A stretch of DNA of 64,000 bases from Styela clava (Eukaryota > Chordata > Ascidiacea > Stolidobranchia > Styelidae), in NCBI RefSeq assembly GCF_964204865.1, contig NC_135260.1:9936001-10000000 (forward strand). Reading direction: 5' to 3'. Positions within the stretch are counted from its first letter, which is position 1, and each line of letters opens with the position of its first letter. A model generated the notes under the pieces. That model did not search any database. It was not told the DNA's origin and saw nothing but the letters and a program-made list of their open reading frames with translations. The translations under genes and the position numbers were made by a program. Below, piece after piece: positions 33,684 through 64,000 of the stretch.

Positions 33684-34733
33684 TCAATTCTGTGGATCTA
33701 ATACAATTTTACAAGCATCTTGAGAAAACAAAGCATTGAAGGCATCACGGAATTTCGACATCGGAATATCATGAGAAATCACTATAGATGGATCGACCTT
33801 TTTTTCAACGATCAGTTTCTCGCACTCTTCCCACGTATGGAATATTCTTCTTCCGTGCACCGTGTTTATGGTTAAAGATTTGAAGACAATGTCTTGTATA
33901 GGGTTTTCAACATGAAATGGCTCCTTTACGAGTCCAATTAAAACTACTTTGCCGCCCTTTCTAAGATATGAAAAGCATCTATTCAGCATGAACGCAGATC
34001 CACTTGCTTCACAAATGCGATCGATTCCATTTCCATCCGTTAACTCCATAATCTTGTCTTTGAAATCTTTCACATCTTTTGAATTGATCACAACATCGGC
34101 GCCCATTTTACTGGCTCGAATCAAACGATCGGGAACAATATCAGCTGCAATCACTCTTGTTGCCCCAAGAGCTTTTGCACATGCAATTGCAAACAAACCT
34201 ACTGCACCGCATCCAATAACAAGCACTTCTTCGCCCGAAACATCAAGTCTCTCTATTCCATTGTGGGCGACTCCCATCGGTTCCAAAAGCACAGCTTCAT
34301 TATCTGTTATGTTATGTTGAAGCTTGTAACAATACTTTTCATTTACTATAGAATACTGAGAGCACCCACCGTGAATTGTACCTCTGCCGTGCCCATACTG
34401 TGACAGATTCTGACAAATATCTCCTCTGTTTTTCGAACACAATAAACATTTTCCACAGAAGAAATGATTTTCAACGGCAATTCGATCGCCTACAGTTAGT
34501 CGAGCTGCGTTAGGTCCAACCTTCACAACAGTCCCTGTCGCTTCATGTCCCGGTGTAAATGGTAGAGACGCTATCAATTTAGCTGTTTCATTCCATTTCC
34601 AAAGACTAATATCTGATCCGCAAATTGCCACTTTGTCAACTTTTATTAAGACTTCATCGTTACAGGCTTCTGGAATAGGGGTTGTCACCCATTCATATCC
34701 TTCAGCTTCTGTTCTTTTTAGAAGACAATTCAT
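33684..34733 (-). CDS. Zinc-dependent MDR dehydrogenase, L-threonine 3-dehydrogenase-like
   Basis: A complete intronless frame of 349 residues in the medium-chain (MDR) alcohol dehydrogenase superfamily. Catalytic-zinc residues C38, H63 and E64 (in PGHE) and structural-zinc cysteines C93, C96, C99 and C107 sit at the same numbers that I recall for bacterial threonine dehydrogenase Tdh. The Rossmann glycines are GCGAVG at 174-179, and D198 after VIAA predicts NAD+ preference. The likely reaction is L-threonine to 2-amino-3-ketobutyrate with NAD+. The sequence WKWNE after ICGSD resembles the WNEW region of archaeal and bacterial Tdh. Animals normally use an unrelated SDR-type threonine dehydrogenase, so a bacterial-type single-exon gene is notable. 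Butanediol or another polyol dehydrogenase is the alternative. Confidence 0.85.
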   Translation of the reverse strand: MNCLLKRTEAEGYEWVTTPIPEACNDEVLIKVDKVAICGSDISLWKWNETAKLIASLPFTPGHEATGTVVKVGPNAARLTVGDRIAVENHFFCGKCLLCSKNRGDICQNLSQYGHGRGTIHGGCSQYSIVNEKYCYKLQHNITDNEAVLLEPMGVAHNGIERLDVSGEEVLVIGCGAVGLFAIACAKALGATRVIAADIVPDRLIRASKMGADVVINSKDVKDFKDKIMELTDGNGIDRICEASGSAFMLNRCFSYLRKGGKVVLIGLVKEPFHVENPIQDIVFKSLTINTVHGRRIFHTWEECEKLIVEKKVDPSIVISHDIPMSKFRDAFNALFSQDACKIVLDPQN

Positions 34734-36690
34734 GATAATGAATAGAATACAGTAACTGCACTTTAAAACGCACGATCTAACACATTATCGGCTCATATCG
34801 CCCGTCAATTGCACGCTTGGCTTGTTTTTAGCTTACGGCTGTGCAGCGCATTGTTTAATCGTAGTAGTATATGTTTACGGTTTAATCAATAACCAAAAAA
34901 TGCAACCTACCTACATCGTGCGGACAGCAAACTTACAACGTTTAATTTCGTTTTATTACTGATGCTATATTTGTATTTAAAAACTTTGTAGATATTGCGT
35001 TTCGTCCAATTATACGATATTGTGCTATTGTTTTTAAACTGTATGTGTCAGACGCCAATACACAATTTCCGGCCATATATCAGCTATTTGGTTAGTCTGC
35101 TGATGTGCAACTTTTTTGACAAAGCCAAATATATATATATATATTATCGAGAAGTATTCAAAATTTACCAATGCCCGCGCCGCACCTATTTTATGCTGTA
35201 TGTCACAGATGTGATGGTTATCGTAGAATGAGAAAAGTTGCTTAAAATACAGTTATGCATGGATAACGCCGGCAATACGGACTTCATTTTGGTATCACGC
35301 TTTTAAATTATTTTATATAATATCAGCGTAAAATCTGACAAAGAGGTCTTCATTCGGTACCTATTTACTATTTGGCATTTGTCTATGGTTCTCACTATAG
35401 TTTACAAACGATGCAAATTTTTTAGCGGTACCGCTCTGGTATGTATTATAGGTGAGTTATACGAAATATGATTGAAGGACTAATTAAAGCATACATAATT
35501 GCAAATGCGCAGCATGTGCAAGAAACGTCAATGAAATTCCCCGTGGTATTGATAAATATTCCAAGCACGGTTCAAAAACAAGCTCATAATTGTAACGTAG
35601 ATTATGCGTTCTCTCTGTTATGAAATTTGGCATATTAATAAAGTTGCCCAAGTATTCTATTTTGCGTTGTATTCCGCATGTAATGGTGCTTGTATAGGAG
35701 GAGAAGTGGTATCTACTTGCGTGTTCCTATTTCCCGTACTATCAAACCTAGCTACCGATCGGAATATTCTCCAACCTGATCCTTCTGAGGTCAAATGTAC
35801 ACACGGTAGATTGTAGTGCCAAATGTTATATATTGCAAAGTTGTACGATCGAATTGATCCAAATAACAGATGTAATGAAATATACACCTTAAGGTAAATG
35901 AGGAAACCAAAACGATAAAACAAAGACTAGTAAGTCTTGAGCGAGGATAAGAAAATATGTCATTAACTTTTCCGCATAAAACGTTGCATAAAGATAATCA
36001 CATTGGAAATGAAATTGGACAACGACCTTGTTTCGGGGAAACAACATGTACCATTAATAATGAGGCGGTAAAAGCATTGACATATACAGTAACTAGTCTA
36101 CTCGCTGCACTCGAAACAGAGACTGAATCGCTGATATCACGCAACTGATTAACGCTCGAGGCTCGAATTCGCATAACGTCATCACAACGCTTCGCCACCC
36201 TGCGCATGTGTTACGATCTGCTTACCCAGTTACAGATAAACAGAAACGATATTGTTACGAAATATATATATTCCAGTTCTTGCTTAAACCAAAGCTAGAG
36301 TAACAGTTTCCCACAGCGATATGCGTTCGTTCTTTCTGGGCGTTGGGAGCACGTTTGTCACAGCATTGCGGCATTGGATAACGTTACCAGTATTCATTTT
36401 CCTGTTACACTTTCCACTGTCATCCAAGTGAATCATATTGATGCTAATACAATCATTTTGCTTCTGTTAATTTTTTTTATTCTTGTTGTTGTTGTGAAAA
36501 CAAATCGCTTTTCAATGGCTAAAGATTGTTGTTGTCGCTAGAGGGCTTTTACTTCTATTTGTTATAAAATGTATAGGGAAGCCTGTGGGAATTATGATTA
36601 AATAAATTTTAGAAACATCGTTTTAAAAACAAAGCAACAAAAACATCCACAACAAAGAATGACGAAATTCAGGAATCTTAGAGATTTATT
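34734..36690. other. Intergenic, with one R1 repeat
   Basis: About 2 kb upstream of the dehydrogenase and downstream of the lipocalin. It holds a (TA)n tract at about 35128-35145. Open frames near 35600-36200 lack motifs and overlap on both strands. Confidence 0.4.
36465..36575 (-). repeat. Dispersed repeat family R1, copy d (partial)
   Basis: The reverse-complement arrangement of the R1 blocks is present: TTCTTGTTGTTGTTGTG, AATCGCTTTTC, AAGATTGTTG and AGGGCTTTTACTTCTATTTG. Only the central part of the family is here. Confidence 0.55.
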
Positions 36691-44200: not shown

Positions 44201-45051
44201 TTCTTGATTGATATACTTACTATTTCTGCTATTGCCTCTTGTGCTGCAAGAGTCTCACAATGCTTAGACAGGTTTGTCCACAACTTCCACATCTGAAGAA
44301 AGAGAGGAGATTTATTAATTTTCGTTAAGAATAAATAAAGCAGTCTATATGATTCAGAATGGAAAAGCTAATAAATCCAATATCTCATGTTTTATTTAAA
44401 AAATATTTTACTGAATTTGGTATATAAACCAACTAATAAAAGGGTTTAGTTAGAAAATTACAAGCATTCGTGGCTCCAAATACTTGAGAAATCAGACTAT
44501 ACAATATAGACCGGTATGAGTGAAATGTTAGGTGAACTTGTTAACACTTTGATTCAATACGCAAATAAAAGTGAATGCGTAATAGTATGTTACAATGAGC
44601 AGCAATCAACAATGAGTATATATCCTCACTGATTAAAAAAAATCTAACTGGAGGTGCATGAACTATTTGAAACCATAAGGGGTAAGTAAATATGTAATTT
44701 CGGCAAATGGGCAACTACATACCGTACTGAATTAATAACTTCGTAGTATTTGACAAAGGCTGGCTTTCCCACATGTACTTAACAGTGCGATGCCCGGGTG
44801 TGATATACAACAATAGTATTCACCTTACCTTTTACCGATTTCTTTTTACCCCAACTTTCAAAAATATCGTTAAAATCGACAACAACTGTCAAAGCAGACA
44901 CGAACACCATTCGTGCTACGCCTTGAAAGCAGCACACATCCGCTCGTTTTCGTCTCGTCAAGTATGTGCATTGGAGCGTGCTATCGAATACGATCTTCGG
45001 ACAAAAATGCCGGAGTTGCGCATCATGTTGTTTAATGTCATTGGTAAGATC
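41242..45051. mobile_element. P-superfamily-like DNA transposon, copy 1 (3.8 kb)
   Basis: The element spans about 41249-45043 between GTAAGATC direct repeats at 41242-41249 and 45044-45051 (one C is shared with the terminus). Ends are inverted: CAATGACATTAAACAACATG on the left and its exact reverse complement on the right, with a second inverted block (CGCTCCAATGCACATA) about 80 bp inside. A frame near 41535-41610 reads GKICVEHFADNDKV, resembling the C-x2-H end of a THAP zinc finger, which is found in P-type transposases. Minus-strand exon-like pieces occur at 44220-44300 (acceptor TTTCTTCAG, MWKLWTNLSKHCETL). Eight-base TSDs plus THAP-like sequence favour the P superfamily, but the coding part is decayed. 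Confidence 0.7.
42514..43720. mobile_element. hAT element nested in transposon copy 1
   Basis: The element is 42522-43712. The left end, CAGTGGTGTCAAACTC, and the right end, GAGTTTGAGATCCCTG, are inverted, followed inward by GAGCCGCA- and GGGCCGC-type sequence common in hAT ends. The flanking 8-mers GAATAGAT and GTCTAGAT match at six of eight positions. The interior (1.19 kb) is non-coding. The equivalent element is present in transposon copy 2, so this insertion predates the spread of the host element. Confidence 0.75.
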
Positions 45052-45282: not shown

Positions 45283-48223
45283 GTGTCCAACAATGACATT
45301 AAACAACATGATAGGCAACTCTGACGTCACTCCATAAGACTACAGGCAAAACATTGTATTTCATGATACGCTCCAATGCACATATTTCTCTTCGCCTTTC
45401 GCGTCCGTTTTCCGCTCGCTTTTGCTACTCGGCGTCTTTTTTACGTGTAGTACCTGCCTTTTTGCGCCTGTAACGAAACAAAATAATCTTTATATCTAAG
45501 AAGTTTCGCTTACTTGGAAAGCTGGAATAACAGGCAAGCTGTAAAGAGCAATTCTGGACATCATAGACTTTTTTTTATCAGAGAAGATTACAAACGCGAT
45601 AGCGGAAAGATTTGTGTGGAACATTTTGCAGATAATGACAAAGTTCAAAGTTAGTAATTTTAATGTTTGCGCTTAATCATTGAAATTTTATTTAAAAAGG
45701 GTTTCATACAAAACTGTGCTGCGATACAATTCCATAACACAAAGTTTGCACCTATCGAACTTGCTTTTGTAGGTGAATTTATTAGACATATTACATATTC
45801 AGTTAATCGTAGGTAACATTGCTGGTACATAATGCATCGTAGATAGGTTTGTTTAAATTTAGGAATTTAGCTCATAGCCCACTAATTAATATTATCTTCT
45901 ATGCAGGAGGTTGCAGGGCTGAATTCAACTTGCAGCCTTACCGATCACCTGACGATGCTCATTTAGTTTGGCTCGAGCAAGTCTTCTTGAAATGCTTGTG
46001 TGGATGGAAACTACCTATATTTTTTGCCTTCCTCCGATTTTAGACAAATTTATTCTGAGGGATTTCGCATATAATTCTCACTGATTGTTGGCTGTTTATA
46101 ATTCCTATTGATTGTGAATTCTGATTATAACAATGAGTTGAAAATTTTTTTACCTAATTTACTGGCACCTTTTTCTTGTCAATACTCCAAGCTGAGGTAA
46201 TAAACATGACAATACATTTATGTCATCTGGAAGCAAAATATGCACACTAATTAATAATTTGGCACATTGAGATAATACATCATGACAGAAAATACAAGTT
46301 AAAGATATGTATGACCATCACATGGTAATTAAAATTAATAAAAATTAATAGGGGCTGTGGAGTATGGAAAGTTCAAGACAAAGAAAAGAACAAATGTTCA
46401 TAGCTCATGAACTCTCAATTTTGCCTCCATTGCTTTGTGAAGGCCAATATATTTCGAGTGGCTGAATTGGTTTACCTTTATGATAGCAACGATTTTGTAT
46501 TTAATATAGCGAGATTATTTCAATTTAATTGAAGTGATATAATTTCCCAAAGCAATGCTTGAATCGTCTAGAATAGATCAGTGGTGTCAAACTCATGGGT
46601 TTTCGAGAGCCGCATTGCATTTTGAAAATTGTAAAAAGAGCCGCAAACAGTTTTTGATAATGTATACTCAAAAGATATTTTTAAGATAGTTTTAGTTTGT
46701 GACATATATTGTGATGCAACTAAACAGTTGGATTAGGTTTTATTATTTTCTTCAATTTCAAATGCAATTACATATTAATATTTGCATTCCACTATTATTG
46801 CAAGTTGCAGTATTTATTATAAAAAATCTTAAAATTATATGTACAACCATCAAAATCATTTTTGAACAAGCTTTGAATAAGGAAAGAATAATACATACAC
46901 TAAAAATACCTTAATCTAAATATATGAACCTAAAATTAGCAAAAATACTACAGTATAAACTCAATGTTTTAATAATTACATTTGTCCTGGCGTTTGGCAT
47001 CTTTTTTTGTGTCACCAGCATACTAAGGCCAGTCTGAAATGATTTTATAGTACCAACTCTAACTAACGAGGCCACATGATCATGGGTTTATCTGGATCTT
47101 TACGAATGTTTAATTAATTCCAGTAATGCAAAAAAGTTACTTTTATCATTTCATGTATAGATCAGTAAAAAAACAAACGACAGATTTTTTCGACAAGACA
47201 TTTCGCACTACATTGCGTGGCATAGGATTGCTTGAATTATTCTTGATATTGATTTTTAGTAACTAAGTCGTTGTATAATTATATTAATATACAAACACAT
47301 GGAAATTTTCTGTTCGAAGTTGGTCTTCGAATTTGTCATATTGACTGCTGAGCTTATTGTGTTTTTTGATTGTATTGATGGAAATATGACAAATTAAACA
47401 ATGTGCTTCAGAATTTTGTGAAGAGCAGAAATGTTACAACTCCCATTTTCTTCGAAAATACCACCTTCTTCATGTACTTTGCGTTTAATTTAATTACTCA
47501 AGTGTTTTATTCAAGTATTCTTTTGGTAGCTTGATGTGTATTCTTAATTGGGTCAAAATGTGGACAAAAAAAATTAATATTCCAAAACTACTTTCAGTAA
47601 ATTGTTTTCTGTGTGAATAATCAATTTCACTTTAGAAGGTTTGAAAAATCTATTACATTTAGATAAAAAAAAACTTCCAGAATACTATTACAATTATTGT
47701 TAAGCGTTCGAGGGCCGCACTGGAAGTTCTCTGGGGCCGCGAGTTTGAGATCCCTGGTCTAGATTGAAGTTGTTCAAAAAATATATGATAGTATTTTATC
47801 ATGAATGATGATTATACCCCTTCCGGAATTTCTTCTATAGTACTACCAAAAGTTGATGAACCAAATATAACACAGGTGCAGTGAGGTACCCGTAATTCTC
47901 ATTTCCAAAGCTGTTTTAAGTATGTCTGGCGTGTTTTGTGCCTTTTTACAAATAAGACCGCTTATGCAATCTTACGCTTTGGAATTTTTAGTTATTTTCC
48001 TCAAGCCCTGCAGGATGTGGGGGCCATACACAACTCTACCGGAGGGTCAAATGTCTTTGCATGCCTCCATAGGTTGTTCGTTCGTGCATACGCCTTGAAA
48101 GCAGCACACATCCGCTCGTTTTCGTCTCGTCAAGTATGTGCATTGGAGCGTGCTATCGAATACGATCTTCGGACAAAAATGCCGGAGTTGCGCATCATGT
48201 TGTTTAATGTCATTGGTGTCCAA
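45283..48223. mobile_element. P-superfamily-like DNA transposon, copy 2 (2.9 kb, deleted)
   Basis: The element at 45291-48215 is flanked by perfect GTGTCCAA duplications at 45283-45290 and 48216-48223. It has the same CAATGACATT inverted ends and near-identical interior as copy 1, but lacks about 880 bp corresponding to roughly 44033-44915 of copy 1, which removes the exon-like pieces there. It keeps a 15-base segment after the THAP-like frame that copy 1 has lost. It is non-autonomous by content. Confidence 0.82.
46571..47764. mobile_element. hAT element nested in transposon copy 2
   Basis: The element is 46579-47756, with the same CAGTGGTGTCAAACTC and GAGTTTGAGATCCCTG ends as its counterpart at 42522-43712 and the same flanking 8-mers. 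It differs by small indels and substitutions only. Confidence 0.75.
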
Positions 48224-48620: not shown

Positions 48621-51600
48621 ATGGCAGAGGGAGATAACTCAGTCTCTGATGATGACTTGAATCAGCAGAAAGGTGAATCTGGTAAGATATTATTGACAAT
48701 CTGAACATAAATAGTTGGATTAAAATTGAGATTTTTATTGTTTACATTTTACCAGTTTGTAATCTCTTGGCACCAGTCAACCAGTTGGTTTAATAATATT
48801 TTTTAATGGTCCTGTTAGAATGAAAAGTCATATTGGCACTACCTTACCCCATATAATTTACACGCTTGGAAGTGGGTGCCATATACAGATATAGCATATG
48901 GCTATCTATCATGCTGATCAAAAATGTGATTTTATAATTTATACCTGTATCATTATTTGTTTGTTGGCGAGCTTCAACAGTTCAAACACAGAAACAGTCA
49001 AAAGGGTGGTAAAATTACTCCAAGTTGGTACCTACTGTAAGCCTCCGTCTGATTGTATTGTAATATATAATACTGTAATATGTAGCGTTTTATATCTAGT
49101 TCATTTATACCAGTATGTAGAATTGTTATCCTCGAAAGTTGCAGGTGCGTAATACATCACCATGAATTTTAATGGTTTCAGTAGCTCTTCGCATTTCAGT
49201 AGTTGTGCATGACCTTGTTTTGAACGAATTTCCTTAAAAAATTACAGGAAATGGGATAAATTGCATTTGGTATTTATGCTTTTCAAGCTATCCATATCTA
49301 CTGCTCCAGCAGTTCTCAAACTTTTTCTTCGTGCTGCGCCAAACTTTTAGGGAAAAAACGCATGGCACACTTACACGAGAAAAATCAATTTTGTGATCGA
49401 TAATGTGTCTGAATTTTATGTCTTGCAAAGTTTGTAAACATGTAGGTCTAAGGAATAAAAGCAAAAGGTTAACTCTTTTTTTTCCATCTTGCCTGATTTT
49501 ACATTGAAATGCTAAAAAATAATTCATGTTCTCTAAACTCGGTTCAGCAGATAAATAAACTGCAGCTCACGAAATTGCATCGAGTGGTGTATATCCCTAT
49601 TGTTACATAACAGTAGAGACAGACATTATGTAACAAAAATTAAACAACATAAAAAGTGAAAAGAATTTATTGATTCAAATACACAGCATTCAAAATAAGA
49701 AACAATAAAACAGTTATAATAATTACAATATGTAAAATATTTAATTATATTTCAGTTATGTCCAATACAATTTTCGCGGCGTACCCTTCGAGAACCGCTG
49801 TACTACAATATTAATTTCTTCATTGATTTATTCAGGCTTCTTTGATCATAGGCCGCTCTTCCTATTATTTTCTCAATGCTTCGTAATTTTGAGATTAATT
49901 ATGATTTTCATTTTTTACAACAGGTACAATAAGAGAAGGGACTGCACGAGTACACATGAAACTTTTCCCAAAATATGGTTTCCTTGTTCCTGATAATCCA
50001 CTCTCCATGGGTGACACAATCTTTTTTGGCCTGACAGCTCATGTAGATGCTTCAAAAAAGTATATTGCAGATCTTCGTGAAGAGCTCTACCCTGATCAAA
50101 AAGTAAAATTCATGGCTGTACCCGTTGAACGCGATGGTTCTATAAAATGGAAGGTAAATATTTGTCTCACACAAAAATAGGATAGGATTTTTATTTTCTC
50201 TCCGGGAGCGAGGAGTCCAGCAATCCTTTTGTACATATTATCACTCATGGGATTTGTACCAGCGAACCCACACAAGATGATCGAAGGTGCGGTGAGCATA
50301 TTCCTAACGCTTACGGGAGCATGATACGCCACCAATACTTAGTTTATATCTACAGTTAGCCTTTGGTGCAAAAATACTGTGCAACAACTTTGTTGTTGTT
50401 TAAATTAACTTTGTTAAATTCATAATCGGCTTTATCATACTTTGTTGGCAGTCTTGGCCCGTCACATTAATTTGGGCGTTTTATGCAAGACTTGTCCTAG
50501 GCGCAGGAATTTGAATGGGAAGTCTAAAACATATTTGGGACATTATAAGTAAATGATGTCGGAAATTAATTTTGTGAATAATCCAGTGTTTTTCAACCTA
50601 TGGGTCGTGAGTTCAAAGCTGCGTGGCCTAAAAATCCATTTTGGTCGCCTGTTTGTCATCAAAAAATTATTGAATTTATTTTCTAGGTAATATAAATGTA
50701 TCTTTTGTATTTGACATTGAATTGTTACTCAGGTATAATTGGATATGTGAGAAAAATATTAAATCGGAAAAGCTTGTTGTGAACGTTAAAACTGATTCAA
50801 TTGAATAGGTTCCTCTTGCAATTTTTATTTTTCAACCGAAATTAAATGATATTCACACGTCACACCACTTTACTTACCGTAAGTGAACTCAATAATTTTT
50901 GGAAATTTGAACCAATTTTTAGTCTCTGATTATCTCTGACAATTCCAACGTGTCCCCGAAGCTCTAAGTTATTTATTTATTATTTATTTTCAGGCATTGG
51001 TGGTTGGTCCTTTACCTGATGACCAACAGGATGTTCCCAGAATTATAGGTATGTGTTATTGCTTCTATTTATTTTTTTTTTGTTTGTCTTTTGTGCCATT
51101 ATACTTTATATTTAGAGGAGGAAGGAGAGGAAGATGGTCAAATCTGGTTAACTTGTCGAATTCATCCAAATTTACAGCCAACACATGGTTTTGCTACTCC
51201 AGAAGGTGGAAATCAATATCATGACAATGTTTATTTTAGTTTACGTGAGGTAAATTCAAATTTAATTTTTTTTTTATTGTAATTTTCTTTTATGTCCCAA
51301 CATTCACTTTTGTAGGCATGTTTATTGTTTTTCCCAAAATATAGACAGTATATCTTGGCATTTCAGTATTCACATGCAAAAATCCCCTTCATTTTCGAGT
51401 GAGTGTTGTGACCTTGCCCTGAGCAATCATCTTATAAAAATATAGGCCTATATACATTATGAGTTACCAAATAAGGAATACATGCACAAATATTTAATTG
51501 TATTATAGAATGAACCATTACATCTATATTTTTGTAACAAAACAATATTAAAAACAAATAGAAATTTCCTTAACAATACGTGTCAAATGATATCAATATT

Positions 51601-54600
51601 TAACTAATTTCATAAAATAATAAATACTCAGTTTTACTCACACTCACACTAAATACTCGGTTTTTATTCTGCCAAGTGTGGCGTTTTGGTTTTGCAAACT
51701 CATAGCTACTGCTCAGACTAATTTTTCCCCATGACTCGCAAAGGCTATCGGGACTGCTTTGGACCGCTGTGTCCATATATTTGGGCTTTGCTCTTGCTCT
51801 CTTGTTAAGTACCGGTAATAATTTTATCAGTTTAGATTTTTTGTGTGGCCCTTCAATTCTCAACTGCATTGAAATAGGGTCTTCAATTTCGTTTCTTCAG
51901 GCAACTGACGGTCTTGAAGTCTCCGTTTCTGATTTGACTTCCGTATTTTCTGCCGGAGAAAGAATCAAAGCTCTTTGTGTGTCTGCTGATCCTCAATTCA
52001 AAGCTAAATACAGAGCATTGAAAGTCTGCAAAATTCCGGAGTCTGCAGATGCTGATTCGGTATGTATGGGTTTGAAAAATTGATCTGAAAAATATTCACG
52101 AATCCTATTTACTGTCAACTGTTTCAATAAACTTTAAAACTGTCTATGCATGTATGAAAGTTTTGTAGTTCTACTCTATGATAGGATTTACAAGTTTATC
52201 CCACTGGAGAGGAAATACTATTAGACAGCATAATCACATGGCTGACCTATGGCCTCTCATCCAGTTACTAGTCCATGTAGGCTCTATCATTATTTGATAC
52301 TGGTATTATTCTTCTTTGCCTATAGTTTGCAGGCAATTCCTATATTGGATTGTGTAAATCTAATTGGAAAGTCAACCAGCTGTAATAAACTTTCTGCTTT
52401 ATCAAATTTATACTGTAATTTGTTTCCAAATTTTTATCATGAACATCGAATATTTAATATCACAATGTTTGATTATTTAATATTTGTTCTCCTTTATAGA
52501 CTGCAAATAGTGATACTCCCGTTTCCAAGAATTCTGCTGAAGATTGTTTGCTGGTCGAAGAAACTGATCAAAGCGCAGTGTCATGGATATATGAAGTTCT
52601 TAAAAGCAAAGATAAAATCAAATTAACAAGCCTAGCAGGAGATTTAAGTCACAATTCCGATATTCGTTCTGTGGTACAACCCCAAAAGAAATCTCTAAAG
52701 CGTTTCCTTGCAAAGTATCCACGTTTCTTCACTATTAAAGAAGATATAGTCAGCCTCGCTCCAAATTGCCCGCCAATTAACTTCAAACCAGTCAGAAAAT
52801 CAAGTGATACATTTCCCAGAGATGAGTATGTTCTTAACAAAAACTGGTCTTCTGAAGACGAGTCTCTCAACAGCCCTAGTGCATCTGAGAGTATACCATC
52901 TGGCATGTCATCACCTATATTATATACAACACATAATTTGAAAACATTGGCGGATTCTTCGTCTCGCTTCACCATGAGCATGCTGGCAAATATAGTCAAG
53001 TCTTTGCCAGAACCAATGAAGATGTCTGAAATTTTTAAACACTGTCAAAAGCAAGGTTGGGAAGGAATGAGAAGTATGGCAATGTTGGCACAAGTCGTTT
53101 CCGACAACCCAACCTATTTTTGCCAGGACGAGAAAGGATGCTTGCTAGTTACTGCGGAAGGAAAAAATCTCTCTGTCAAACAAGCTGATGTTAATAATAT
53201 TAAGACGACAAAAAGTTCCGTAAATGGTACTAACCATCCATTAACAAGTTCTATAATTGTCAGTGCTCCCAATGTTGAAACTACAATAGGTCAAGGACCG
53301 CTTGGAAGCTTTAACCACTCTTCAACTGCATCTGCATTTTCAATCTTCTCTCCACTATCGCCTCCAAAGCCTCAAGAGTCATCTTCATCACTGATAACAC
53401 CTAGTTTAGGATTTGGAACATCTGCCTTCAACCATACTCAGTCAAATGTAGGAATAAATCGAAAAGCATACATGCCTATTAGCACCAATTTTCTTGGTCT
53501 GACTCCATCATATCAGGTATAAATTAAATGATTCTTTATTCCCATCTCATTCTCTTCTTGGTTAAGTGATAGCTGGTAACACTGGTAGCAAAAAGGTTTC
53601 TTATTTTGTCCGTAACTGTAATTAAAATTTTTTTGTTCAACTCTTTCAGTGTTAAATGTAAGACTATAGCTAGATTCCATTTTCAGTGTTGGAAAATATG
53701 TACTGTTTTGCTAAATTGTTGTTAAAGCAATAAATTGCCTGAAAATAGTGCTCTAATCACTCTCAATTCTTTGATATTTAAAGTATATTTGATAGGATAT
53801 TTCGGTGTCACTTTGGTTTGCGATCGCACTTGCTCAAAACATGATCTCAATCACATACCAGGTGTTGCCACTTCGGTATGATTTTAAGCTCTCAATGAAT
53901 TCCAAACCTTATCCTAACTGAGATCACACCTTGTTGAGATTGCTTACTAAAATAGCATCGATATTTTCTTTATATTTTCTAGTCACATTTCTTCCAAGCT
54001 TGTTTGGGTTTGATCTTTTTGTTCCCAAATTGTCTTGTTTTAAATTCTCACCTCTTAGTCTCACTGATCATTTTTGGTGAGCTAGTGGTGATGGTGTGAA
54101 CTGTGAAGACACAGTGACAGTACGTTGAGCACCCCTCTCCTTTTATTTTTAGGCTGACAGATCCAAATCCACAGCAAGTAATAATTTTGGAAATAATTCA
54201 TTCCCTTCAAGTCATGTTTTACCTGTCGCCCATACTTCTTCAACTACTTCCTTGACACGACTCAGTAATGGATATGTAAGTTTACTTTGTTTGAAAATGT
54301 GAATTCGATAGCTATTAATCATAAGCTCGGATATATTTATTATTATGTGTTATTTCAGATCACATGATCACAATAGAGTATCTGACATACAAATGTTCAC
54401 CATTTGACATGAAAAATTATTGCCATTTTCTGAATGCACAACCTATTAATTCAATATATTTTGTTCAAGAAAAAAAATATAATGTAAATAGAAAAATTTT
54501 TGGCGTTCCCAGAAGTGGACCACGTTGAGAAACACTGCTTTACACTACTCACCTATGTAAAATCATATTTAGGTATCTTTTCAATATTTTCGGACATTCG

Positions 54601-57347
54601 TGAGAAGTGGAAAAAACATTGGGAAGCATTCATAATTTTCTTTATTACCTTGCTGATAATTTGCATCACAAATTACATTTACCAGATTTATCACAGTGAC
54701 AATGAAGACTTATTAGATGACAAATTCAGATCTCCAAAATCAGTGACATCTGCGAGTCATTATAATGAAGAGGAGAGTCAATTTTTGTCCGTGGTTGCTC
54801 GAGGAATTTGTCCTCACGCTGTGGGTGGAGGTGAAGAAGTTTTCAAAATGCTGAAAAAAGAGCTCGAAGCACTCGGGATATCATTGTCAGACAACGAGGG
54901 AGGAAACACAAGCGGTACACTGTCACGTCATCTATTATGTTTGGAAATGGATGTGGGAAAGAAACCAAGAGCAAAGTAAGCAGAATAGGATGAAATTTAT
55001 ATATTTTTTGTGGGGGGGGGGGAGAGGAAAATGTAATTGATATTGATATATTATATTTTCTAGGTTCCAGTCTTTCACACCAAGTGGAAAAATCAGCAAA
55101 ACAACTGTGACATTATTGTCAGCTGAAAGAATAAGTGAGGCTGCTCTAGCTAATATGCTTACCTTGTCACAAGCAAATGTTAACATAACAAGAGTTGGAA
55201 GACTTCTATATGGCATAAACAAAGCTTATCATTGTATAAGGTAGAACACTTCCTATTTCATTACTAAAGATGCATTTGTACAAGTGATATTCTTGTCATT
55301 GTATGGTATTAAAGCCCGACATTCAAAAATAGAACTCTTTGTTTGAACCATAGTGAATTTTGGGTATTCCTGTAGTGTGTGTACCATACCAGGTTAGGGT
55401 TAGGCCATAATTTTATTTCGATTTTCCTTATTTCAGTTCTATTGCGAGTTTGGGGACTGTCTGTGTTATACAAGTGAATATACCCCCTGCCCATAGGTTT
55501 CAGTCCCTTTACACAACTTAATGTAAAATAGGCGAACAAAATTAGTCACCTCCGTAACTGAGTGAAATGCTTCCTGCTCTAAATTCTTTCAGAGTCTGAT
55601 ATTTCACTGCAAAATTCGCTGTTTTTCACAAATCCCTGGCATACTTTCACAGCATTTAGGACAGTACTTCTAACATTTGACTGGAAGTTTGCTGGCATTG
55701 TGATCTTCATTTGGCCTTTGTGTGAATATATTTGAGTACTTGTCCCTTGTTTTCGAATAATTCTTTACTATTTAAGAAAAAATATTATAATTTCGAATAC
55801 CAATTATTTCAATTATTATTTACAATATTACAGATTTTTATAGAAATATATTCCTGCTTTTCTTTTCAGAATGCTAACAAATGGTATTGATGAGATTTCT
55901 GGCTGTACTGTAAGTTTCAAGAACCAAGATGCCCCCGATATCAGAATGTCTGATCATTTGCAACTTGGAGAAAAGGGAAAAGTGAAAATAATATTGAGTC
56001 ACAGTAGTCAGGGTACAACCTCAAGTGCTGCTTGTGCATCATTGAGAAAACATGCTATCGAAAAATGTGTGAATTCAACTGTTGTTGTAGTAGACTTGGA
56101 GGGCCAGGTTTGTGCATTCTACTGATATATATACCCTCTCCTTACAAAAATATTTTCAGGGTCTTTGTGTGTTATTTTTCTTAACATTAGCATTGACCGA
56201 CGTGATCATATCAGTCAACTGACCTTTATGCCCATATGTTATCTTGTTTTGCAGATTAAAGTAAAACCGACTCTTTTCATTTGTCCAAATTAGCTTTTCT
56301 ATTCTTATACAGTTCTTTTATACTTTAACTTTACTTTGGGTGGTATGCATAACATCATGTTATTTTCTTTTCTTCAGATTTTTGGATTTGGCTGTCATAC
56401 TTCTGAAGTTCGTCGCATGATTTGTGGAAGCTTAGACATGCAGCAACGACATTTAAAGGAAACTGTTCATCATCATCCCAGTTTAGTTGTTGCAAATTCT
56501 ATCGATTGTGTCGAATCTTTAAAATTATTGAAGCGAATAAATGCTAAAGGTAAGTAGCAGATGCCTGAATGGTAATTATGAATGTGGCTTTAGAAAGGAT
56601 AAAATGGAATTTACATATTTATCTTGGGGAGTGGAAAGTCGATAAGGCGCCTTAATCATATGATGAGCCACGGCCTCTCGTCTTGTTACCAGTCCATGTT
56701 GGGTATGAGATTAGTTAGCCAGTTATTTGTTTCCGGCTTGATGTTGGAGGAAGACCTGCAGTTATGTAACTGACCTGCAGTTACGTGAACCTTCCTATGG
56801 CGGAGAGAAGTACAGCAATCCTCTTGCACATAATTATTGCCTGAAGGCTGAAATAAAGATTTGTGCTCTGGTGTGAAAAAAATTATTTTCATTTTTTAAC
56901 CTGATATTCAGGCTCGACGTAACATCTGCTTAAATATTGCATATGCATAGCACTGTTCTTCATTTTCCAGATTAACCAGTTTAAGTCTATATTCCACTAA
57001 TTTCTCACTTGTTACTGTCATTCCTAGTACCCTCGTGTTGTGTACTTTGTGCGCAATTTTTACAATATTTTCGATTGTCTTTTGTGATTTTCTTATACTA
57101 TCCAGAAACTTCACGCGTATAGGTATTAAAATATATTTCCTCACTAAATTTTACCTTTTCTCGTAAAACATGATATTGATTAATCTGAGTTGTTAATTTA
57201 AGATTACCTAATCGAGCATCCAGCTTCCACATCCACACAATAGCTTGCGCTAAGTAATTTCATTTCTATTTAGGAATTTCCATATATGCAGAGGTCACCA
57301 AATCATTGGAAAAAACTGTGAGAAATATATTTAATGATTGTACATAA
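48621..57347 (+). CDS. Unrecognised 909-residue protein, cold-shock-like and Egl-N/LOTUS-like segments
   Basis: Twelve exons join in consistent phases: 48621-48681, 49924-50153, 50994-51048, 51116-51249, 51901-52059, 52500-53516, 54153-54275, 54686-54975, 55064-55240, 55870-56107, 56378-56549 and 57274-57347. The product has no signal peptide or membrane segment and is probably intracellular. Residues about 28-105 and 122-208 look like two beta-barrel, cold-shock-like repeats (GFLVPD...DTIFF; HGFATPE...DNVYF). Residues 238-301 and 370-432 look like paired winged-helix units of the Egalitarian-N/LOTUS kind (KKSLKRFLAKYPRFF; AQVVSDNPTYF). A Ser/Pro-rich linker (about 440-610) leads to a C-terminal region (about 620-909) that I cannot assign. 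RNA binding is an inference. AATAAA lies at 57505 and 57520. The exon 8 acceptor is the least certain boundary. Confidence 0.75.
49307..49800. mobile_element. hAT-type non-autonomous element in intron 1
   Basis: The left end, CAGCAGTTCTCAAACTTTTT, and the reverse complement of the right end, CAGCGGTTCTCGAAGGGTAC, are inverted, with GCTGCGCC and CGCCGCG following inward. Flanks TACTGCTC and TACTACAA match at five of eight bases. The interior is non-coding. It lies in intron 1 of the 909-residue gene. Confidence 0.65.
50185..50345 (-). repeat. tRNA-derived SINE, copy 2
   Basis: On the minus strand: GGTGGCGTATCATGCTCCCG, GTTAGGAATATGCTCACC, then GGGTTCGCTGGTACAAATCC (B-box region) and a tail with GGATTGCTGGACTCC. 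It matches the head of the SINE at 7040-7290. It lies in intron 2 of the 909-residue gene. Confidence 0.65.
52215..52275. repeat. SINE fragment
   Basis: CAGCATAATCACATGGCTGA then TGGCCTCTCATCCAGTTACT and AGTCCATGTAGG match the second block of the SINE family at 7180-7245 and 56640-56705. It lies in intron 5 of the 909-residue gene. Confidence 0.5.
54300..54541. mobile_element. One end of a hAT element in intron 7
   Basis: The reverse complement of about 54499-54541 begins GCAGTGTTTCTCAACGTGGT then CCACTTCTGGGAACGCC, a standard hAT terminus. The opposite end was not found. The start coordinate is approximate. Confidence 0.4.
55362..55562. mobile_element. MITE of the GATGGCGGAC family, copy 4 (reverse, truncated)
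   Basis: The reverse complement matches copy 2 (23130-23342) from GTAACTAATTTTGTTCGCC- to the GGTACACACACTAC-type end. It lacks the outer GGCGCTCC arm on one side. It lies in intron 9 of the 909-residue gene. Confidence 0.75.
56625..56850. repeat. tRNA-derived SINE, copy 3
   Basis: The + strand block GGCGCCTTAATCATATGATG, CCACGGCCTCTCG and ACCAGTCCATGTTGGGTATG matches the SINE at 7180-7250. The following part, read in reverse, matches the GTGCAAGAGGATTGCTG segment of the copy at 50185-50345. It lies in intron 11 of the 909-residue gene. Confidence 0.6.
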
Positions 57348-61195: not shown

Positions 61196-63603
61196 TCACT
61201 TATTTGTTATTTCGGTTCCTTTTGATGAAACTAGCATCGATTGAAGTCGAACTCTCTTCTTCCATACAACATCTACAATATTCGAATACATTAATGGATT
61301 GAGAACACTGTTTATAGGCAAAATAATGATAGCTGTAGCAGCATAAATTTCAGCCCTCGCCTTTATTGCGCCGGTAAAATTTAATAACGCTATGATACAC
61401 AACGGCATCCAACAACAAAAATCACTGGCAACAAGGCGTATGATTTTCTTCTGCATACTCGAACTTCTATCAGCAGTACTTCTAATTTTACTTTTCTTAT
61501 TAGACTTTCTATAAATGGCGATGTAAGCAAGCATTATATAGATGAAAATGAAGAAGTTTACTATCACGATCGTGAATGAATATCCCCACATCATTTCTTT
61601 TGTTGTAACATAGAAGTTCGGTAAACAAACGCTCTCCTGGGAGTAGTATCCATAAAATCCACGAATGCGATGAGCGGGGAAATTTTGCTGCAGGTGATAA
61701 TTAAGTTTACTCCAGTCTTTTGGCAAATTAGTATTAGATGCGTTTGGAGAAAATGCGGTGAGAAGCGTTGCAAATTGTCTCACTCCGTTGAGGTGAACAG
61801 TGCGGGATGAAATGAACTTCGAAGGGATGAATGCTCCATAAGTAAAGGCTTCTTGCATATGAGAGGAAAATGGTATAAGACCTATGAATAAAGCAATACC
61901 CCAGGCTAGAGCTATTGCAATCGCCGCCCATTTAACTTTTATACTCCGTACCGTGAGGGGATTATGCACAGAGACAAGCCTGATCGTTGTAAGTAATGTT
62001 AGCATAAATACAGATGCTTCCGAGGATATGATGGAGATTGCACCGAGCCACACACAGGCATTACTTGTTCGCCATTGAACATCGTGTCTACAATATGCAC
62101 CGGCAACTGTACTGTTTTTTACAGCTATCCCAAGAAGATAGATAGCCATTAACAAATCGGCTATAGCAAGATTAAATAGAATCAGATGATTGCATTTTAG
62201 TAAACCTTCAGCCTTATGTATTCTATCATAATCTCTGATTTTATCAATAATCATATAGCTGTTTCCAAATATACAACAGAACCCGACAAACCAAACCCAA
62301 AATTGAAAGAACGGCGATGCAATCAAATACGCTCTTGATCCAATGGGTTCGTTGTCTAGATCTCTCGGACATTCGTCAGCACCTTCGTGGCAGTCTTGCA
62401 CTCCATCTCCTACAAACCTGTTTGGGACTGATAGAGGAGTTCCTTCCTCGCATTGGTACCTTGAAGTGCAGTTGTCTTCATCGCTTCCGTCGTCACAATC
62501 TTCATACCCGTTACATTTTAGAACGTTATCAATACTGATTAGACTTCCACTCTGGCAATAAAATCTACCTGGACAATTAGTTTCTTCTTCTGGGATACGT
62601 GGATTACAAGAAGACCATTGTCCATCACATATGTGCTCAACAGTAAGGTTAAATGTACCCGTACTTGTATTACATTCTCGAATAAACGGAACAGTAGAAA
62701 AACCTAAATAGCAAAAATCCGATGTTGTGTTTGTTTTATTTACGCACTCAAGATTACACTCGTCCGATAGATCGTAACACTCCGGTCGCCCATCGCAAAG
62801 CCTTGCCAATGTTCGAGTTGAGTTATCTACATCGCCCGCACATCGCATAATCCGACGAGATGAATGAGAACTGCAGTATTTTTCGTCCATCCTGTCTTTG
62901 CAATCTAGCCTTCCATCACATATTTTGTCGGTGGTTAACTCAGTAGTAATATCACAGACAAAAGTCCCCAAAGTACAATTGGTTGTTCCCCACTCTGCTT
63001 CTCGTGTACAATAGCGCGAACAAAATTCTTCATTACGATTTTCGCACGGACATTCGTCAGATAAATCCGAACAATCTACAACTCCATCACATTGTTGTAA
63101 AGTAGATATCCTCATGCTTTTATCAAAGCAGTGAAACAATCTAGAATGTCCATCTGTAGTTTTTCCTTCGTCTTCTTCGTTGTTGCAGTGAGTAAAGCAA
63201 TCAGACACATGTCGTTGTGGAAGAACGCATATGTCACCTCCTTGTCCGAGTGGGCATTTGAACCCGGCCACGTGACGTATTTCATCCGAACCATCTCCGC
63301 AGTGATCAATTTTATCACATGCGTATTTTGTACTAATACATTTTCCATTTTTGCATTGATACGTTCCGTTTATACAGTCGCCGTTATCGCAAAACTCCTG
63401 CCATGACCAACATTCTGGCCTCTTTTTTCGGCAACCCCTCTCATCACTATAATCTCCACAAGAATCAATTCCGTCGCACACTTTTATCTGCGATAAGCAT
63501 TTACCATTGCCGCAGTTATATTCTCCAAAATTACAAAGGGGATCAGTTGTAGAAGAGTTACTTTGAGGAGTAGTATCTGTTTGACAATTCCCCGGTAATA
63601 TAC
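61196..63603 (-). CDS. LDLa-repeat GPCR (GRL101/LGR-like), 5' part outside the window
   Basis: A single large 3' exon of 801 codons begins at acceptor TGCAG (63604-63605), with the stop at 61196-61198; upstream exons are beyond the window or unrecognised. About eight LDL-receptor class A modules come first, each with the C-D-G/N...D-C-x-D-x-S-D-E signature (for example CDGIDSCGDYSDERGC and CNGYEDCDDGSDEDNC). They are followed after about 20 residues by seven membrane segments. Receptor features: CCWMP in TM6, LPINSVLNPLMY in TM7, and extracellular cysteines before TM3 (YCRHD) and in loop 2 (SVCLPNF). These resemble relaxin-receptor/GRL101-type LGRs. DRY is replaced (TIRLVSVHNP). No leucine-rich repeats are visible between the LDLa units and TM1. 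The ligand is unknown. Confidence 0.9.
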
Positions 63604-63605
63604 CT

Positions 63606-64000
63606 GCATGTGATTCAAAATTTCAATTTTATTTTACCTTAATTCAAATAACATTTAAAGTTATAGCCTTATGTGAACATGGTATAAAATGTGTTCACAA
63701 CTTGTAGCTTCGACGAAAGAAAAATATCTTAACAAATAAATATTTTTTAGCTTGCTATCGAAATATAAAGGAATCAAATAACACATATAGTTTAACTATT
63801 TTTTGTAACCAACTTTCATTAACATTTTTATGTTTTATGACGCTTATGCTATAAGCCTGATGATTTGGTTCAATAATTAAATTAAATTAATTGCCGCCTA
63901 TTATAGTCATATGAACACCTATGATTTTTCATTGCTGAAAAGAAAGAGCAAGCAATCTACTGAACTATCTAATTCTATTTCACATTATATCACGTCATGT
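63606..64000 (-). other. Probable intron of the LDLa receptor gene
   Basis: AT-rich, non-coding sequence upstream of the acceptor at 63604-63605. No further coding exon is visible before the window ends. Confidence 0.5.

Follow-up and report, generated by a model that had tools for sequence, protein, structure and literature searches.

Gene, product and surroundings

The window, that is, the whole 64-kb stretch of Styela clava DNA analyzed here, carries a gene of 12 exons on its forward strand. The coding region and the features of its product are as follows, with residue numbers referring to the encoded protein.

48621..57347, + strand: coding region, 12 exons joined in frame, 909 aa
48621-48681, 49924-50153, 50994-51048, 51116-51249, 51901-52059 and 52500-53516, + strand: exons 1-6
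54153-54275, 54686-54975, 55064-55240, 55870-56107, 56378-56549 and 57274-57347, + strand: exons 7-12
49941..51020, + strand: repeat 1, residues 27-106, exons 2-3 (range includes intron), from ungapped alignment to repeat 2
51151..52041, + strand: repeat 2, residues 128-207, exons 4-5 (range includes intron), from ungapped alignment to repeat 1
52572..52763, + strand: winged helix WH_Egal (PF23713), residues 238-301, within exon 6, Pfam match
52935..53180, + strand: conserved block, residues 359-440, candidate second winged helix, from conservation with P0003
53301..53363, + strand: linker island, residues 481-501, 20/21 identical with P0003
53451..53501, + strand: linker island, residues 531-547, 16/17 identical with P0003
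54261..54709, + strand: linker island, residues 589-601, 13/13 identical between P0002 and P0003, spans the exon 7/8 junction (intron included)
54767..57344, + strand: C-terminal block, residues 621-909, exons 8-12 (range includes introns), fits no family found

Joined in silico, the exons encode 909 residues followed by a stop codon, and all 11 introns have GT...AG boundaries. Database search and alignment matched the product end to end to P0002, "uncharacterized protein LOC120342626 isoform X1" of Styela clava (TaxID 7725; UniRef/nr), with four substitutions among 909 residues. The Styela gene and its protein are genuine, and both the exon chain and the length of 909 residues proposed in an earlier note on this DNA agree with the join and with P0002. 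The four differences (window residue first: S266P, R588G, E711Q and S863N) appear to be normal variation or differences between assemblies, since a second database protein, P0003, agrees with P0002 at positions 266, 588 and 863 and with the window at 711. P0003 has 916 residues and is encoded on a contig of 3,221 bases. This is too short for a gene with such introns, so the contig is probably a transcript or cDNA.

P0002 and P0003 were the sole matches in a database of 5.8 billion proteins, both for the whole protein (E <= 0.001, best 7,994 candidates by shared words scored) and for two segments, residues 620-909 (E <= 1, 4,267 candidates) and residues 22-210 (E <= 10, 403 candidates). Because the search method requires shared 5-residue words, distant relatives may have been overlooked. 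The first 205 residues matched none of 50,697 phage records, as expected. A literature search for LOC120342626 returned no paper, and none of the literature retrieved on Egalitarian and on Styela describes this protein, judged by titles and the beginnings of abstracts.

The Rfam search at gathering scores gave 0 matches within the 64-kb window. A direct repeat of 129 bases has copies at 44917-45045 and 48089-48217 that are 100% identical and 3,172 bases apart, and the start codon of the gene lies about 400 bases downstream of the second copy; the repeat has no Rfam match and is perhaps a mobile or repeated element. On the reverse strand, a single open frame of 808 codons (61196-63622) appears, by our own reading, to encode LDL-receptor class A repeats ahead of a rhodopsin-like seven-helix receptor, an arrangement like that of relaxin-type or LDLa-containing GPCRs. 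Another reverse-strand open frame of 366 codons (33684-34784) reads to us as a sorbitol dehydrogenase-like medium-chain dehydrogenase.

Conserved blocks and linkers of the protein

Alignment of P0002 with P0003 gave 691 identical columns of 919 (75%), unevenly distributed along the protein. Identity in the domain blocks is 84-95% (83/87 in repeat 1, residues 22-108; 73/86 in repeat 2, residues 123-208; 78/87 in the winged helix region, residues 224-310; 69/82 in block 359-440), and the C-terminal block has 236 identical columns of 289 (82%). The two long linkers show 54% (residues 311-358, 27/50 columns) and 50% (residues 441-620, 93/186 columns). The blocks are so much more conserved than the two long linkers that they may be taken as folded, constrained parts, and the pattern speaks for folded blocks separated by loose linkers which carry short motifs.

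The N-terminal segments are confirmed, by sequence comparison, as homologous copies arising from tandem duplication of one module of about 80 residues. The alignment of repeats 1 and 2 is free of gaps across 80 residues, of which 21 are identical; their Smith-Waterman score of 103 compares with a maximum of 43 among 2000 shuffles (0/2000 as good), and hhalign gave a probability of 94.8% with 0/60 shuffles as good. When segments of the protein were compared in 28 pairs, this was the sole pair accepted as a repeat (0/500 shuffles). The pair C3/C4 also gave 0/500 shuffles, but the compared ranges overlapped and the result is an artefact. The lowest value among the remaining pairs was 14/500, which is unremarkable given 28 pairs.

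Whether the modules are cold-shock-like, as the earlier note had it for both segments, is a separate matter: the segments are present and homologous, while their cold-shock identity shows as a weak signal only. A four-row profile of the repeats compared with four cold-shock domains, used as approximate queries, scored 16.2 with 2/150 shuffles as good and an hhalign probability of 2.4%. Repeat 1 alone gave 3/60 shuffles as good and repeat 2 alone 21/60; control comparisons of unrelated pairs gave 46, 32 and 44 of 60 and 35/60. Each repeat has a 'GF' followed by an aromatic '(F/Y)F', in the same succession as the two RNP-like strands of cold-shock domains. Neither repeat matched the cold-shock family PF00313 at E <= 10 (HMMER's filters remove most matches with E above about 0.1), and the four chains found with the repeat profile among PDB sequences are at chance level (E 0.19 to 1.1). 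Together, these comparisons are at most suggestive of a relationship with cold-shock domains. A match of residues 161-228 to RRP5, an S1/OB-fold protein, might hint at an OB fold; at E 0.14 it was too weak to be counted. A match to HU in the family search (E 1.6) is at chance level. The predicted structure models, with mean pLDDT of 30 and 53 and the last repeat strand missing from the second, were unusable and gave no trustworthy fold match.

One Egalitarian-type winged helix is firmly identified by profile. PF23713 matched the window protein with 48.1 bits (E 1.7e-12; curated cut-off 27 bits), P0002 with 49.3 bits (E 7.1e-13) and P0003 with 45.7 bits (E 9.8e-12). Across the 376.6-Mb assembly, searched exon by exon with only the best candidates scored, this exon was the single place found. 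Among PDB sequences, the best of six matches to residues 224-308 was Egalitarian (9rvy), itself weak (E 0.039, best single stretch 10.7 bits), and the next was a plant-type oxidase (E 1.2). In the 9rvy match, two Egalitarian domains aligned weakly to the Styela winged helix. Our own reading of the second alignment (3.3 bits, thus a lead only) places Ser127 and Gln128 of Egl ED2 opposite Ser263 and His264 here. In fly Egl, several noncanonical dsRNA-binding domains, ED1 and ED2 among them, build the RNA pocket; the second helix of each of these two is inserted in RNA minor grooves, and Ser127 and Gln128 of ED2 are base-contact residues (PMC13186709).

The earlier note had proposed two Egalitarian-N/LOTUS-like winged helices. 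The first is the domain above, and the second, at residues 359-440, found no Pfam match above cut-off and no PDB or pairwise support. This block had no match among PDB sequences and none to PF23713, and the Pfam matches obtained (P3A, CNOT1_HEAT and SapA, E 0.068 to 0.51) did not reach the cut-off and concern families without relation to winged helices. LOTUS/OST-HTH Pfam models matched neither P0002 nor P0003 nor the 359-440 piece at E <= 10. Compared with the first winged helix, the block gave 16/60 shuffles as good by hhalign and 621/2000 by pairwise alignment; adding two Egl fragments to the first winged helix gave 14/150. A helix-helix-helix-strand-strand order fits a winged helix, in a whole-protein model of mean pLDDT 30.4.

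The linker between residues 441 and 620 proved poorly conserved, in line with the Ser/Pro linker named in the earlier note. Its three conserved islands were picked after viewing the alignment of two sequences and are possible binding motifs for partners, with residues 481-501 a candidate short linear motif. The window has R in place of G at 588, just outside the island 589-601. A Hyponastic leave 1 match over columns 591-640 (E 1.1) is at chance level.

The C-terminal block had been placed outside known families, and we arrive at the same view: it is conserved and has no Pfam match and no credible match among PDB sequences, and its database matches at residues 620-909 are those to P0002 and P0003. 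A designed TIM barrel (6wvs) matched the C-terminal pair with E 0.0023; this E value sums weak stretches of 6.8, 6.4, 5.5 and 0.9 bits, so we read the match as coincidence on a beta-alpha-beta stretch. Two PDB chains matching residues 730-909 (E 0.62 and 0.89) are at chance level. An L7Ae/L30e-like domain at residues 728-850 found no support, with 54/60 shuffles as good; residues 780-909 and 618-909 gave 0/60 and 1/60, over just 28 columns and with about 1% probability. The last 130 residues look alpha/beta in the whole-protein model, whose mean pLDDT is 30.4. The 3'-5' exonuclease family PF01612 does not match the protein at E <= 10, and a search of PDB sequences with the C-terminal part did not bring up Egl at the same limit of E <= 10. 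PF01612 matched three other places in the assembly, in an exon-by-exon search that could miss a multi-exon Egl-type exonuclease. By our own reading of the translations, these places look EXD3-, EXOSC10- and WRN-like.

Taken as a whole, the architecture appears to have no match to any known architecture among the searches made. The suggestion that it joins modules not usually combined is fair among the matches found, but a word-based search could miss distant orthologues of the same architecture.

Possible functions

We lean slightly towards the view that the protein is a multi-domain RNA-binding adaptor, and we infer the RNA binding from Egl. The Egl-type domain would grip the minor groove of structured RNA via its second helix, as fly ED1 and ED2 do. 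As a guess, both the duplicated modules and the C-terminal block may supply further RNA or partner contacts, and several weak domains could jointly select an RNA and tether it to machinery for transport, storage or translation. Charge counts against such an adaptor: K+R versus D+E is 12/12 in repeat 1, 9/13 in repeat 2, 13/11 in the first winged helix, 10/8 in 359-440 and 35/29 in the C-terminal block, so that the blocks appear near-neutral or negative, unlike strongly positive RNA binders. The exonuclease-homology domain, though part of the Egl RNA pocket, was not found in our profile searches, and this also counts against the adaptor.

The same near-neutral or negative charge would suit a protein-scaffolding factor whose winged helix and repeats bind proteins rather than RNA. 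Winged helices and LOTUS domains can bind proteins too, and the LOTUS domain is reportedly a DEAD-box helicase regulator and a Vasa recruiter. We consider a scaffold unlikely; the nearest characterised relative of the Egl domain binds dsRNA directly (PMC13186709). Another possibility, which we regard as somewhat improbable, is that the protein belongs to an animal family described before, with distant members that escaped the word search and an architecture already recorded under another name. The requirement for shared 5-residue words, the numbers of candidates scored (7,994, 4,267 and 403) and the use of the window's own genome as the sole eukaryotic genome compared all leave room for this. 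Against it, searches of Pfam, NCBIfam and PDB sequences gave one credible match in the protein, that to PF23713.

The protein could also be a diverged tunicate orthologue of Egalitarian, serving as the same mRNA-dynein adaptor, with the exonuclease part decayed or diverged into the C-terminal block. The C-terminal parts of the two proteins are, we presume, similar in size. In favour of this reading, a single WH_Egal locus was found in the assembly, and the three exonuclease places found, which look to be of EXOSC10, EXD3 and WRN type, lie apart from it. TQT-type strings are a dynein light-chain binding motif, and a pattern search of P0002 for TQT or [KR]xTQ found none, which argues against such an orthologue, as do the missing PF01612 match and the lack of an Egl hit when the C-terminal part was searched against PDB sequences. 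The order of winged helix, linker and C-terminal block is alike in the two proteins, but Egl as described (PMC13186709) is without an N-terminal repeat pair. We judge this orthology quite unlikely, and in its strict form we rank it below the RNA adaptor, because the exonuclease-homology domain was looked for and not found.

A more specific proposal would have a chordate Egl-domain RNA adaptor, equipped with a tandem RNA-binding module of its own and a C-terminal fold that is new, transport localised maternal or cell-type mRNAs in ascidians. This is a speculation to which we assign a low probability. If true, it would mean an Egl-like RNA localisation route beyond arthropods and nematodes.

Significance and relation to known systems

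A 2012 review considered BicD/Egl transport most likely confined to arthropods and nematodes (PMC3361156), which makes an Egl domain in a chordate noteworthy. Several ascidians are listed there among the species whose oocytes, eggs or embryos contain localised mRNAs (PMC3361156). With its firmly identified Egl domain, this tunicate protein is a specific candidate for tests of RNA localisation, and the gene is relevant to the fields of RNA localisation and tunicate development. Should other animals lack the Styela protein, its repeat pair and its C-terminal block would count as new families.

Among known systems, LOTUS/OST-HTH proteins (Oskar, TDRD5/7 and Limkain) are close by fold, the fold of Egl domains being similar to that of LOTUS domains (PMC13186709); the Styela protein is without a LOTUS/OST-HTH Pfam match. 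Cold-shock proteins of the CspA, YBX1 and LIN28 type share a weak profile similarity with the repeats (the 2/150 shuffles above) and differ by the missing PF00313 match and the low hhalign probability. The Drosophila mRNA-dynein adaptor Egl is laid out as three EDs, of which ED3 is divergent, followed by an exonuclease-homology domain and XAD, and it starts with these three Egl domains (PMC13186709). The Styela protein differs in having one PF23713 match, no detected exonuclease domain and a tandem repeat before the ED. What it shares with Egl is the PF23713 winged helix, long linkers and a large C-terminal block after the winged-helix part.
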